From Halobacteriovoraceae bacterium (GTDB lineage Bacteria > Bdellovibrionota > Bacteriovoracia > Bacteriovoracales > Bacteriovoracaceae), in assembly GCA_018663815.1 (NCBI GenBank), contig JABJPQ010000595.1, positions 1-5,394 of the forward strand: 5,394 nt of DNA, given 5' to 3'. Shown piece by piece: positions 352 to 5,394 of the stretch; the first letter of the stretch is position 1; each line of letters begins with the position of its first letter. The position numbers were made by a program, and so were the translations under genes. The notes beneath the pieces are model-generated. The model saw only the letters and a list, made by a program, of their open reading frames with translations, did not search any database and had not been told where the DNA came from.

Positions 352-1431
352 ATGAAAATTTACTCAGAAGCGATCAAAAGCTTTACTTTAAGATGTGAAA
401 ACTACCTCAAAATGATAATGAGTGAAGAGACTGAGCTAGAGCTAAGAAGGACGCGATTTGAATATAACAAATACACGTATCCCTTAAGTGTCATCATCTT
501 TATTGATTCTCAAAAGTTAGGATATTTTGATCCGACAACTTATCAAATTGGCTTACATGCTTCCCTTATGTACCAAGCAAAAGAGCATGTTATTAAGAAC
601 ATTCTCCGACACGAGCTAGCCCATTATCTATGTTGGCTTAAATATGGCCTGGATGGTCCCCCTCACGGAGAAAACTTTAAAGATATTTGTAAGAAGTATC
701 ACTGGGATCAAAAAGTTGATAAAGCCAGTATTGATATTAAGCTTGCTAATGAATTTGAAGGTGACTTAGCATCCGAAAAAATCATTTCGAAAGTAAAAGC
801 TCTTTTTAAATTAGCCGAAAGTGATAATGAACATGAAGCCAGGCTTGCAACAATAAAAGCCAATCAACTGCTAATCAAACATAACTTAGAAAAAATCAAC
901 TTACATCATCACGATATTTTATATTCTCAAGAAGTCTATTCTTCTAAAAGAAAGAATGCTAAAACAAATGCTTTTTATTCTATTTTAATGCATTTCTTTG
1001 TTAAACCTGTCATCGTTCATTCAACAAATAAAACATCACTAGAAGTTTTTGGAACTAAAGAAAATATAGAGCTCGCTCAATACATCACTCATTTTTTAGA
1101 ACGGAATTTTGAACAACTTTGGAAAGATCAAGACCTTTTAAAAGGTCTTAAAGCTAAAAACTCTTTTTTCCTTGGAATTGCCAAAGGGTATGAAGAAAAA
1201 ATGTTAAATGTAAAAAAAGACTTTTCCCAGAGTGCTCAAACCTCCCTCCTTGTTTTATCAAATCAACTTGCGACTCAAGTTGAAAAATTTTGCATGCGCT
1301 TATCATACTCACGCTCCCAAAATCAATTTGATAAAAACGCCTTTCAATCAGGAAAAGAAAAGGGGCACAAACTGAATATTAACCCAGCCCTCAAAAATAA
1401 AACAAAAACTCATCTACTCTTTTGGAAATAA
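352..1431 (+). CDS. SprT-like zinc metalloprotease domain fused to DUF2786
   Basis: This is a 359-residue soluble protein with no signal peptide or membrane segment. Residues about 10-120 look like a SprT-like (SprT/Spartan type) metallopeptidase domain: HELAH at 87-91 supplies two zinc histidines and the catalytic glutamate E88, and H105 in PPHGENF fits the third zinc ligand of the H-G-x-x-F pattern. Residues about 142-182 match DUF2786 (K-V-K-A-L-F-K-L-A-E-S, then EA-R-A and N-Q-L-L-I-K-H-N). Residues about 190-285 resemble the DUF7168 segment that often follows DUF2786, ending in SFFLGIAKGYEEKM. The tail is lysine-rich. Spartan proteases cut DNA-protein crosslinks, but a role in DNA repair here is inference. 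ATG 352 is the first usable start after an in-frame stop at 310-312; it has no Shine-Dalgarno site, consistent with the TATAAT just upstream. M21 and M23 are alternative starts but would cut into the domain. Confidence 0.85.
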   Translation: MKIYSEAIKSFTLRCENYLKMIMSEETELELRRTRFEYNKYTYPLSVIIFIDSQKLGYFDPTTYQIGLHASLMYQAKEHVIKNILRHELAHYLCWLKYGLDGPPHGENFKDICKKYHWDQKVDKASIDIKLANEFEGDLASEKIISKVKALFKLAESDNEHEARLATIKANQLLIKHNLEKINLHHHDILYSQEVYSSKRKNAKTNAFYSILMHFFVKPVIVHSTNKTSLEVFGTKENIELAQYITHFLERNFEQLWKDQDLLKGLKAKNSFFLGIAKGYEEKMLNVKKDFSQSAQTSLLVLSNQLATQVEKFCMRLSYSRSQNQFDKNAFQSGKEKGHKLNINPALKNKTKTHLLFWK

Positions 1432-1820: not shown

Positions 1821-2164
1821 AATTATTAATATTACTCACTCTCGTATCATGTACCCAAAAATACCAAACGTATCATGTAATTGATAAGTTTAACTTTGAC
1901 CAAGACAATCCACAAACACCGATCACTAAAAAACAGTACCCAGGAAGAAAAACAACTATTGACCACTGCGCGGGACAGTTCTTCTTTATGAGTAATGCTA
2001 AAAAACAGACTGATCGCTATTTAAAGACTGCTGTCAGAACGATGTGTCCAAATAGTAATACGATTTTGAATTCAAGGTTAACTGAAACATGGTGGACGAC
2101 GATTATTTATTCAAGGTCTTGTTTTGAGCTAGAGGGATATTGTCCTAAGAAACTAGCCCACTAA
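1817..2164 (+). CDS. Small cysteine-containing lipoprotein, unknown function
   Basis: This is a 115-residue protein with a very short signal sequence (MKLLILLTLVSC) ending in a lipobox, L-V-S-C at 9-12, so C12 should be lipidated and the protein membrane-anchored on the outside of the inner membrane. The residue after C12 is threonine, not aspartate, so outer-membrane sorting is likely if the host is Gram-negative. The mature part has four cysteines (51, 77, 102, 109) that could form two disulfides, and a conspicuous ETWWTTIIYSRSC stretch near the C-terminus. Small size and layout are loosely like Bor/TRL-type lipoproteins, but I cannot assign a family. The gene starts in an ATGA overlap with the DUF423 stop and has its own AAGGA site, so it belongs to the same operon. 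Its stop codon lies 12 bases inside the convergent receptor-like gene. Confidence 0.8.
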   Translation: MKLLILLTLVSCTQKYQTYHVIDKFNFDQDNPQTPITKKQYPGRKTTIDHCAGQFFFMSNAKKQTDRYLKTAVRTMCPNSNTILNSRLTETWWTTIIYSRSCFELEGYCPKKLAH

Positions 2165-4306
2165 TTTGAGTAATGGCTCTAATTCTTTCTCATCATTATC
2201 CAGTATTAACTGATTACACTCTTTAATCAGTATTTTTAAGGAAGTGACAAGCTCTAACTGACTATAGTTTTGTGAAATATCATGAAGAGAATCATTCAAT
2301 TTTTGATTCACTTTTTTTACATCAGTAATACCCTCACTATGGTGATGAAAAATTTGCTGTGCATTTTCTGCTAACGATTCTGCATCAAAGGCAATTTGAC
2401 CTTCACTCTTTAGTAACTGCAAAACTTGAAGTCTAAACTGAGCAACTCTTTTTTGTTGAGAATTTATACGATCTGTATTAAAGCAATCTTCATGTTTAGA
2501 AACTTCATCGAGAAAAGACTGCAGCTTGTAAAAACCTTGATTTAGGGCTTCTATGTACTCTATCGCTTCAGGCGAAACTTCATCACGATCAAGCTTAAGC
2601 TTCATGTTCAAACATAAAACTTCTAACTCACTTCGAATGGAAGAAAACTCATCATTTTTCTTGTTAAGCTCATAAAAAACCTTTCCAAATTCTGCATTTT
2701 CATCCGTAAGTTTTAAAACATGTTGATGCAGCTCTTTCAGCTGTTCACTATTGGTACGAAAAGATTCTTTTAATTTCGTATAAATTGATGCTACTTGTTT
2801 TTCATAATCATATTCTTCATCAAAAAAATTATCAAACAAGTCCCCTTTGTATGCTGTTGTAGAACTATAAGTACTAAAGATTTTTTCGACCGATTCAAGT
2901 TGCTGATGAAAGCTATGAAGTTTATGTGTAATTTCAGAAAACTTTTTTTCGGCCTGTTCTTGCCTATTTAACATTATCTCCTTGATTTGCTTGATTTCAA
3001 GTTGTTCATCAACGAGACGATTTTCTTCTACCGATAATCGTTGCTCAAAGTCCAGCAATGCCTTATTTTTTGCATCATAAGCTGATTGCTTTTCAGCAAA
3101 TTCTTTTCTTTGTTCATTATACTGATCAAACTCTATTTTTTGCTGGGTAACACTTAATTTACTTTGTTCTAAAACATTCTCAGCTTGAAAGAGTTCTTCT
3201 TTACCTTGTACCAAATCTTCTTTTAAATCAAAAAGACTGACTCTTTCCTCATTAAGCCATAAGTCTTTTCGCTCGACTTCAGCTAACTTTTCCTTGAGTT
3301 CCATTTCTCGTTCTTTTAAAACATTAGCTCTTTTAGAAATATGGTCATTATTTCTGACAATTGCCTCTTCTTTATCTTGTATACTATTTACATAGTTTTC
3401 ATAATTTAAATTAGAAGCTATCAACTCACTTTGTAACTTTTCTAGCTCAACTGTCCTTTCTTGTAATAAAAGATCTTTTCCCCTAACATTTACAGGAACA
3501 AGATTTTTTGATCGTAAAACAAAGATTAAGCCCAGTAAAAAAGCAAACATCATGACAATTTGTTTACCGAGAAGACTTAAGTCGGCACCATGATTTAAAT
3601 AGCTTAACCTTACTCCCCAATCGAGCTCATTTTCAAATAAATCTTTTATGGTAACTAAAGATCGTCCAGATTTTGAAAATGCATCAGAGATGACACTCAC
3701 CTTCAGATCAGAAACCTGCATACTTTTTGCATGGTAAGTTAGAGTTTTATCTAGATTATAAAAACCTATAAAGTATGAATGAACTTTTTTCTTATTCTTA
3801 TATAAAGGTATCGAAAAATAATGCCCTCTATCTGATGTAAAGAATTTATCCTTAACTAGCGCGGATAAATTAACGCCTACTAAACCTTCATCAAAATTGT
3901 TAGAGTGTTTTTTACTTAAAAGATGTTTAAATAAACTTTTCTTGAAGTGATTTTGCTTAGTGTCTTTTTTCTTTTTTACTAAGTCACTAAAAAGCATATT
4001 TTTCTTTATCGGGTCTACAATAAAAAAATAATCAAATCCTGTTTCCTGCTGACTTAAGGTATTAAGATATGCAACTCTCTGTGAACTTGTGTCCAGTAGG
4101 ATATTATTCTTAGCAAATACCTTTAAGGTTTTATAACTTTTTACAAAGCTATTTCTCAGGTTTTCTTCAAATATCGTTTCAGGGTCAATTGTATTTTCAA
4201 AATCATATTTAATTTTTTTAAATGTTTTTTGTGCTTGGTACCCCCATATAATGGCAATACTAAGTAATGTGACCTTAATTAATGTTAAAGATCTATTTTT
4301 AATCAT
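2153..4306 (-). CDS. Two-TM sensor with Cache-like domain and long coiled coil; possible divergent chemoreceptor
   Basis: This 717-residue protein has a membrane helix at about 7-25 after a basic N-terminus, an extracytoplasmic region of about 220 residues, a second helix at about 249-265, and a large cytoplasmic part. The outer region has Cache/PAS-like strands (YFFIVDP at 93-99, HYFSIPLYKNKKK at 162-174, YFIGFYNL at 178-185), which suggests ligand sensing. Residues about 275-475 are a charged coiled coil rich in Glu, Lys, Gln and Leu. An acidic, aromatic break (about 478-500) leads to a helical C-terminus. There I557-R574 aligns without gaps to the chemoreceptor tip (IAFQTNILALNAAVEAAR in Tsr), keeping LxLN (N567) and the arginine seven residues on (R574); the rest is degenerate, with no GRGFAVVA motif. 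It is coupled to the CheA-like gene by ATGA and has an AGAAGG site. The membrane topology is secure; the receptor assignment is tentative. It could instead be an unrelated coiled-coil scaffold. Confidence 0.8.
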   Translation of the reverse strand: MIKNRSLTLIKVTLLSIAIIWGYQAQKTFKKIKYDFENTIDPETIFEENLRNSFVKSYKTLKVFAKNNILLDTSSQRVAYLNTLSQQETGFDYFFIVDPIKKNMLFSDLVKKKKDTKQNHFKKSLFKHLLSKKHSNNFDEGLVGVNLSALVKDKFFTSDRGHYFSIPLYKNKKKVHSYFIGFYNLDKTLTYHAKSMQVSDLKVSVISDAFSKSGRSLVTIKDLFENELDWGVRLSYLNHGADLSLLGKQIVMMFAFLLGLIFVLRSKNLVPVNVRGKDLLLQERTVELEKLQSELIASNLNYENYVNSIQDKEEAIVRNNDHISKRANVLKEREMELKEKLAEVERKDLWLNEERVSLFDLKEDLVQGKEELFQAENVLEQSKLSVTQQKIEFDQYNEQRKEFAEKQSAYDAKNKALLDFEQRLSVEENRLVDEQLEIKQIKEIMLNRQEQAEKKFSEITHKLHSFHQQLESVEKIFSTYSSTTAYKGDLFDNFFDEEYDYEKQVASIYTKLKESFRTNSEQLKELHQHVLKLTDENAEFGKVFYELNKKNDEFSSIRSELEVLCLNMKLKLDRDEVSPEAIEYIEALNQGFYKLQSFLDEVSKHEDCFNTDRINSQQKRVAQFRLQVLQLLKSEGQIAFDAESLAENAQQIFHHHSEGITDVKKVNQKLNDSLHDISQNYSQLELVTSLKILIKECNQLILDNDEKELEPLLKLVG
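2209..2237 (+). terminator. Possible weak intrinsic terminator of the rightward operon
   Basis: ACTGATTA (2209-2216) and TAATCAGT (2224-2231) pair as an eight-base stem with a seven-base loop, followed after one A by five Ts (2233-2237). It lies 45 bases after the lipoprotein stop and inside the convergent receptor-like gene. The stem has only two GC pairs, so it would be weak. On the minus strand no T-run follows, so it would act in the rightward direction only. Confidence 0.35.
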
Positions 4307-5388
4307 GATGCCACCTTCTTAGAAAGATCTACTGCCCAACTAGGACAATTATTGATAACAGGAATTAGTTTCTCTCCGTACTCAACTTGACCATCTATAA
4401 AATCATTCTCTAATTTTTCATCTAAGCCTGTAATCACGACTTGTTCGACTTCACCAACTTTATCAACTAAACAAACAAAAGGGATCGCACCTTTCCCCAT
4501 GATGGCACCAATAAACTTGTCTCCTACTCTCGTGTTTTCAAAGTTCATCACTGGATACTGTTCAGTATCTTTTAGAAAATAATAAACATCATCAATGAGT
4601 TCTAATTCATGAGATGAAATATTTACAAATTCAATAAGATCATCTTCTTTAATAAAAAAGGGCTTGTTTTCAACCTCAATTAAGAACGCTGGGTTCACAT
4701 TAAACTTAATTGGTAAATCATATGTATAATGAAATGAATTTATCTCATTTGAAACCTTATTGGCCTTAATACCTAATTTTTTAGACAAATCAATAATTTT
4801 TGAAACACGATGATCGACGGCATCAGTTGCAACTTGCATAAAGTCAACGTCTTCAATATTAACATCGACACTAAACTGCAACCTCGAACTTTGAAGGTCA
4901 GTCTTTATATTAACATGGTATTGGCTTTGATTATTTAATTGATAATCGACAATGAGTTCTAATAGGCTATGAAAATAGCTTTCAAACATATTTAATTTAT
5001 AATACAAAAACTTTGCTTTTCCCCAGTAGGTATTAAATACTACATTTTTCCCAGCTGTAATTGTGTAATCCTCAAGAACCGTGATTACATTATCTAGATA
5101 AAGATTAACAGGAACCAATCCCATCTTTTCATAAGTACTAGAAAAACTATTAAGATCATGACATAAGTTTTTAACGACGACGTCGTCTGAGTGAGCAAGT
5201 TTATTCTTATTAACAATTATATTCTTAAATACATCCTGAAGTTTTTCAAACTCCATATCATCAACACTCAAATTTAAAGTAACTGGTGTCTCTTTTGTCA
5301 TTTCAAACTTAATTAGATTTAACTCTGAATTATCATTCGCTCCTTGCATAAAACTAAGTGCTGGCACTTTCACTTCTTTTTTAAACAA
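4303..5388 (-). CDS. Degenerate CheA-like protein (P3-P4-P5 without HPt or ATP-binding boxes)
   Basis: This is a 361-residue soluble protein whose order matches the C-terminal two thirds of CheA. Residues about 36-90 fit P3: TLNLSVDDMEFEKLQ with NIIVNKNKL resembles the R-V-x-V-x-K-L-D-x-L...ELVI-x-R-x-x-L region. KMGLVPV (88-94) fits K-M-R-M-V-P-I at the P3/P4 junction, and TAGKNVVF (111-118) fits the LGK-x-V segment of P4. The N-box position reads LLELIVDYQ (142-150), without the metal-binding asparagine, and DxGxG and GxGxG boxes are absent. Residues 203-229 (KKLGIKANKV to TYDLPIKF) match the end of P4. P5 follows at about 230-355: VDKVGEVEQVVITGLDEKL resembles V-D-x-V-L-G-x-x-E-V-V-I-K-x-L. 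P1 and P2 are missing. It is therefore probably a catalytically dead, array-forming CheA relative. The start is TTG 5388; an in-frame stop at 5394-5392 excludes a longer frame, but GTG 5373, GTG 5367 or ATG 5349 are possible. It overlaps the receptor-like gene by ATGA. Confidence 0.82.
   Translation of the reverse strand: MFKKEVKVPALSFMQGANDNSELNLIKFEMTKETPVTLNLSVDDMEFEKLQDVFKNIIVNKNKLAHSDDVVVKNLCHDLNSFSSTYEKMGLVPVNLYLDNVITVLEDYTITAGKNVVFNTYWGKAKFLYYKLNMFESYFHSLLELIVDYQLNNQSQYHVNIKTDLQSSRLQFSVDVNIEDVDFMQVATDAVDHRVSKIIDLSKKLGIKANKVSNEINSFHYTYDLPIKFNVNPAFLIEVENKPFFIKEDDLIEFVNISSHELELIDDVYYFLKDTEQYPVMNFENTRVGDKFIGAIMGKGAIPFVCLVDKVGEVEQVVITGLDEKLENDFIDGQVEYGEKLIPVINNCPSWAVDLSKKVAS
4314..4319 (-). 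promoter_or_regulatory. Ribosome binding site of the receptor-like gene
   Basis: On the minus strand AGAAGG lies seven bases before the ATG at 4306, inside the last codons of the CheA-like gene. With the ATGA overlap of stop and start, this supports coupled translation of the two proteins. Confidence 0.6.
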
Positions 5389-5394
5389 ACTTTA

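Follow-up and report, generated by a model that had tools for sequence, protein, structure and literature searches.

A putative CheA-like pseudo-kinase without an ATP site in a Halobacteriovoraceae bacterium

Results

The stretch of DNA analysed here (the window, 5394 bp) is one whole contig, JABJPQ010000595.1, of a fragmented Halobacteriovoraceae bacterium assembly (GCA_018663815.1; 717 contigs, 80.7% complete), and it carries two overlapping genes on its minus strand, to which all the features of these genes given below belong. The first, P0001 (4303..5388), is an intact frame of 361 aa from a TTG codon and encodes a CheA-like protein in which the ATP site of this chemotaxis kinase is missing. 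Alternative starts lie at 5367 (GTG, residue 8) and 5349 (ATG, residue 14), the GTG fitting the 354-aa length of the protein's database record. The second gene, P0002 (2153..4306, 717 aa), shares with it a 4-bp ATGA (4303..4306) in which the P0001 stop meets the P0002 start. Three parts succeed one another in P0001: a P3-like helical hairpin (5122..5289, residues 34-89), a P4-like GHKL core without the ATP lid (4705..5121, residues 90-228) and a P5 or CheW-like domain (4306..4704, residues 229-361). An earlier note on this DNA had proposed a CheA-derived P3-P4-P5 order on the basis of short segments, all of which were located: KMGLVPV from residue 88, KKLGIKANKV from 203, LPIKF from 225 and, in P5, VDKVGEVEQVVITGLDEKL at residues 308-326.

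The loss of the ATP site was assessed against 120 CheAs chosen by homology and not by motif, among which the N-box is found in 120, DDGxG in 115, GRG(V/I)G in 120 and HxxKG in 117. A motif search of P0001 returned no DxGxG, no GxGxG and no HxxKG, and the only two N...H in it, at residues 62 and 256, lie off the N-box place. In a MAFFT alignment of the protein with 58 of these CheAs (unreliable over residues 172-198), the place of the N-box helix (4939..4977, residues 138-150) is occupied by YFHSLLELIVDYQ, which retains just the L and the D of the CheA pattern HLxRNxxDHG and has the N-box asparagine replaced. Further on, six residues (178-183, 4840..4857) replace the G1 box, the ATP lid and the G2 box: they lead from strand 169-177 to helix 184-204, where the G1-to-G2 spacing in CheA is 52-53. 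An AVDH at residues 190-193, the same letters as in CheA, was considered as the N-box and set aside: the rest of P4 would then have to fit into the roughly 30 residues ahead of LPIKF, and both structure models place that helix at the G2 position. The absence of the N-box asparagine and glycine boxes, which the earlier note had read from the sequence, is thus borne out by the motif search, the alignment and the mere six residues in place of the lid. P0001 lacks an HATPase_c domain with N-box asparagine, G1 and G2; because this ATP site is a defining feature of the kinase, P0001 ought not to be classed with the CheA kinases, and to judge from its sequence the loss of kinase activity is nearly certain. 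Pocket loss was seen in P0001 alone among the CheAs examined, although the sets of 43 and 56 CheAs from kin genomes used below were chosen by the N-box and its rarity is not measurable there.

The homology of the P5 domain to CheA is firm. With a first profile built from 43 CheAs of kin genomes, chosen by the N-box pattern, residues 220-329 match the end of P4 and P5 with a score of 43.4 (E 2.7e-5), the best of 300 shuffles of P0001 scoring at most 28.5. A score above 41 was reached, in the 443 frames of the fetched loci, by 44 CheA frames and by ten more, some with CheW-like stretches (not each was checked); nine of these ten outscore P0001, and the next frame falls at 31.4. P5 alone, compared by hhalign with 56 CheAs, gave E 6.7e-7 with none of 400 shuffles as good; in a semi-global profile test none of 1000 shuffles and 4 of 830 other-frame windows (not identified) scored as high; in a HMMER test with the 58 CheA rows P5 ranked 1 of 2001. 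The curated Pfam cut-off for the CheW domain (PF01584) is not reached, with no match to any Pfam family up to E 10 for the whole protein or for residues 229-361 alone; homology to this domain by profile-profile comparison and a two-barrel fold are both found, so placed that a CheW-like P5 follows P4 as in CheA. Columns in which at least 90% of the 58 rows share a single residue are retained at 17 of 62 positions in P5 (229-351), 17 of 105 in P4 and 7 of 35 in P3, which supports P5 as the best-kept part of the protein.

The identity of the P3 and P4 parts is probable, on a weak sequence signal combined with structure models. The hhalign score for P3-P4 is 19.9 (5 of 400 shuffles as good), and its register, which brings residues 55-121 to P3 and the start of P4, is that of the earlier note; a semi-global test from P3 to the N-box was equalled by 10 of 1000 shuffles and 6 of 988 other-frame windows. 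In the MAFFT alignment P0001 is collinear with the CheAs, with N62, L79, N80, P93, D107, K114 and D148 on invariant columns. Both alignments put the P3/P4 junction and the end of P4 where they had been proposed, and the P4-like part has the claimed length of about 140 residues. The guided structure model forms the P3 hairpin from helices 44-65 and 70-89 at a low predicted local distance difference test score (pLDDT, about 41-56). Of the proposed P3-P4-P5 arrangement, the order and the P5 homology therefore stand, while P3 and P4 are weak in sequence and lean on the structure models.

The earlier note had also claimed that the P1 histidine domain is absent. The frame indeed contains no HxxKG, the motif of the phosphorylatable histidine of P1 (HPt), and it is closed upstream of the TTG by an in-frame TAA; this TAA (5392..5394), however, is formed by the final three bases of the contig, at whose end the gene sits. 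The genome has a single copy of the final 17 bases, and no other contig overlaps there. Since some CheAs without HPt have been reported to have their gene at a contig end (PMC10782961), the loss of P1 is not certain, and from the sequence we regard it as likely.

Searches for relatives returned little. P0001 has no NCBIfam match, a single PHROG match at E 0.1 and, among PDB sequences, matches just to two ribosomal proteins (E 0.66-0.8). At E 0.001 it found only itself among 5.8 billion proteins (candidates of 0.55-1.75 times its length, which excludes CheAs of 900 aa), and no relative in 58 further related genomes. In the family, 25 of 129 genomes, the window's own among them, gave rows when E values up to 1 were allowed; the ten strongest further rows, covering residues of about 203-343, are frames of ordinary CheAs at 22-28% identity, and several weaker ones fall outside CheA frames. 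A phylum search at E 0.01 gave rows in 14 of 368 genomes, again with its own, two of which look like chance; the rows in G329 and G331 were left out of checking, as were the weak family and phylum rows other than those named next. Weak phmmer rows to an RNA methyltransferase, a photolyase and an isomerase (L195, L132 and L129, named by eye) and to a protein without recognised domain (L185) were judged to be chance, and a histidine kinase row (L196) aligned outside the GHKL register. The orthologue check suggested by the earlier note thus gave weak matches only, with no close orthologue bearing intact ATP boxes among 59, 129 and 368 genomes.

P0002 begins, by eye, with a hydrophobic segment, followed by about 220 aa, a transmembrane segment predicted by hydropathy (3491..3580, residues 243-272), a long coiled coil and a helical C-terminus, residues 281-476 giving weak SMC-type, coiled-coil matches. 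A protein database search at E 0.01, which scored only the 7993 candidates with the most shared words, gave no homologue, and neither did 58 further related genomes, searched with E 0.001 as the limit. A YfbR-like Pfam match (E 0.00098) to residues 475-717 (window 2156-2884) lies below the cut-off and is probably chance. The possibility that P0002 is a degenerate methyl-accepting chemotaxis protein (MCP) was rejected for now: to the eye there is some likeness to a hairpin tip near residue 563, but the hhalign scores of 15.0 and 16.5 (first and second MCP profile) fall short of 23.6, the highest score among 100 heptad shuffles that were compared with the first of these profiles alone and without a computed rank for P0002, and no 70-residue tip window scores above 3.6, where the 95th percentile for 300 shuffles is 6.6.

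The contig was assigned to its genus by genes that are adjacent or nearly so in kin, namely those for SprT/DUF2786, DUF423 and a small lipoprotein-like product. The first of these (window 352-1431) fuses a SprT-like domain to DUF2786 and DUF7168 and is present in 26 of 39 genomes searched, its own included. The lipoprotein-like gene was found in 6 of 20 fetched kin regions, and in all six a queE-like gene (by eye) comes next with at most one gene between. As the P0002-P0001 pair occupies this queE-like position in the source species, it has the appearance of a lineage-specific insertion. For a mobile origin of the locus, a plasmid search gave no match and no viral-contig relative was found; the one phage match, with a radical SAM-like protein (E 0.7), was judged to be chance. 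The PADLOC defence search gave no match for P0001 and one for P0002 (residues 304-471, E 0.052). The GC content at third codon positions (GC3) of P0001 is 0.262, against 0.248-0.295 in its neighbours.

The same genome encodes an intact CheA of 612 aa, with 7 CheW-domain and 8 MCP matches. It also carries a 291-aa CheA fragment (L080, 8108-8983), matching CheA from mid-P4 onward, with an IS3-type transposase-like frame (by eye) about 400 bases off, possibly an interrupted CheA. Within the family, genome G009 has a 404-aa CheA reduced to P3-P4-P5 (locus L118, 4259-5473) with N-box, G2 and DDGRG intact, so that a CheA without P1 is not unique to P0001. After one base this CheA is followed (both within L118, 3364-5473) by a 297-aa protein whose C-terminus is CheW-like and whose N-terminus is of no clear type; a look-alike of 293 aa lies behind a 706-aa CheA in G011 (L117). 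Two genomes of the window's genus, both 99% complete (G001 and G002), have no CheW-domain and no MCP match, while the window's own genome and G003, of the same genus, have 7 and 6 CheW-domain and 8 and 7 MCP matches, respectively; chemotaxis seems to have been lost or gained within one genus. Genome G022 has 23 CheW-domain matches, three of them within one 516-aa frame (L056).

Discussion

The reading that we favour, with modest confidence and from sequence and structure models, is that P0001 would be a kinase-dead, CheA-like partner that docks into chemoreceptor arrays as a non-catalytic scaffold, probably made together with P0002. The earlier note had suggested a possible scaffold or decoy and made no mention of P0002. 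Missing the N-box asparagine, the glycine boxes and the ATP lid, P0001 is likely to be an array partner devoid of kinase activity and may well act as the structural half of CheA does. P3 would dimerise the protein, P5 would take the position of CheA in the CheW/P5 rings and at the receptor tips, and the P4 core, unable to hold ATP, would be a mere rigid spacer. Co-produced with the membrane coiled-coil product of the overlapping gene, P0001 would either tether P0002 to the arrays or dilute the active CheA there, and would in this way adjust the output of the intact CheA that its own genome encodes. A bolder form, in which a signal of non-MCP kind from P0002 would enter the array through a pseudo-kinase in the seat of CheA, the whole being a dedicated kinase-free array unit, is put forward tentatively and is rather unlikely. 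If arrays do contain such pseudo-kinases, catalytically dead subunits could tune both the stoichiometry of an array and its kinase output.

Several observations weigh against the reading as an array partner. The P4 part, tested with a cheap gap for the lid, was equalled by 95 of 1000 shuffles and 219 of 725 other-frame windows, and the HMMER rank of P3-P4 is a marginal 185 of 2001; a global alignment of P3 and P4 with the same cheap gap (6 of 1000 shuffles), its traceback out of register, was discounted. The single-sequence structure model has a pLDDT of 34 and no Foldseek match below E 0.001, its six top matches having TM-scores of 0.12-0.17 and being followed by unrelated chains (rank 7, E 2.4e-2), and the guided model draws on its own CheA rows. 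P0001 has no orthologue in the 59, 129 and 368 genomes, and hence no sign of conservation; P0002 has no MCP signature and no match to PF00015 (MCPsignal); the contig end adjoins the start of P0001.

These points bear on the rival explanations as well. P0001 could be a decaying copy of CheA, a lineage-specific remnant without function, expressed or not, as the fast divergence across all its domains and the occurrence in one genome, with just weak matches in the 368 of the phylum, would suggest; yet 361 codons are free of stop or frameshift, GC3 is near that of the neighbours, the overlap with the 717-codon frame of P0002 is exact, and a larger share of conserved columns is kept in P5 than in P4, which makes decay quite unlikely. 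Alternatively, P0001 could be a dimeric CheW-like or P5 adaptor serving P0002 alone, outside chemotaxis and without contact with CheA arrays. The overlap of the two genes, the transmembrane segment and coiled-coil-type matches of P0002 and the lack of a further che gene seen in the window agree with this; it appears unlikely nevertheless, given the active-looking che system in the same genome and L251, E253 and V255, which are invariant with the 58 CheAs and appear, by eye, to lie at the receptor groove of CheW/P5 (groove described in PMC5706961). Finally, the altered pocket could still bind nucleotide and phosphorylate an HPt in trans, P0001 being half of a split kinase like CheA4 with CheA3 in Rhodobacter (PMC10782961). 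The P1-less CheA of 404 aa in the same family adds to this precedent, but that protein has the N-box, G2 and DDGRG, whereas P0001 has no N-box asparagine, G1 or G2 and six residues instead of a lid, and we consider the split kinase highly improbable.

A comparison with known systems places the putative array partner among several relatives. In the accessible part of a 2023 survey, according to which HATPase_c and CheW models serve for the automated identification of CheAs, every CheA homologue surveyed has HATPase_c, the single degenerate case lying inside CheA3 (PMC10782961); a CheA relative without an ATP site can thus escape such detection. No free-standing CheA pseudo-kinase appears in the literature surveyed, which comprises titles and abstract openings with few subscription journals. 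CheA3 of Rhodobacter (Cereibacter) sphaeroides resembles P0001 in its degenerate HATPase_c, which according to profile-profile searches and AlphaFold misses helices and some ATP and Mg residues; CheA3, however, retains an N-terminal HPt and partners the kinase CheA4, whereas the frame of P0001 lacks an HPt and is paired with a gene for a membrane coiled-coil protein (PMC10782961 for CheA3). CheA4 and the 404-aa CheA of G009 share with P0001 the P3-P4-P5 composition without P1 or P2, but their ATP sites look intact and CheA4 is called a kinase (PMC6829392, PMC10782961). Among the ten family rows that phmmer scored highest with P0001, most are frames of the size of the CheA-CheW-REC hybrid kinases of Bacteriovoracaceae (850-940 aa), aligned over the end of P4 and the first P5; unlike P0001, these kinases have P1, the ATP boxes, REC and a second CheW-like stretch. 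FrzB of Myxococcus, a divergent CheW-like protein without contact with its CheA, acts upstream of the receptor FrzCD, and nothing resembling P3-P4 is mentioned for it in the accessible text (PMC6952110), in contrast to P0001. A P5-like domain outside CheA is known to promote array formation (PMC5706961): ParP of Vibrio, through such a domain (AIF), joins array core units via MCP and CheA, and, compared by description, it differs from P0001 in having a ParC-directed N-terminus and no P3 or P4 named in that source, where P0001 has its P3-P4-like parts.
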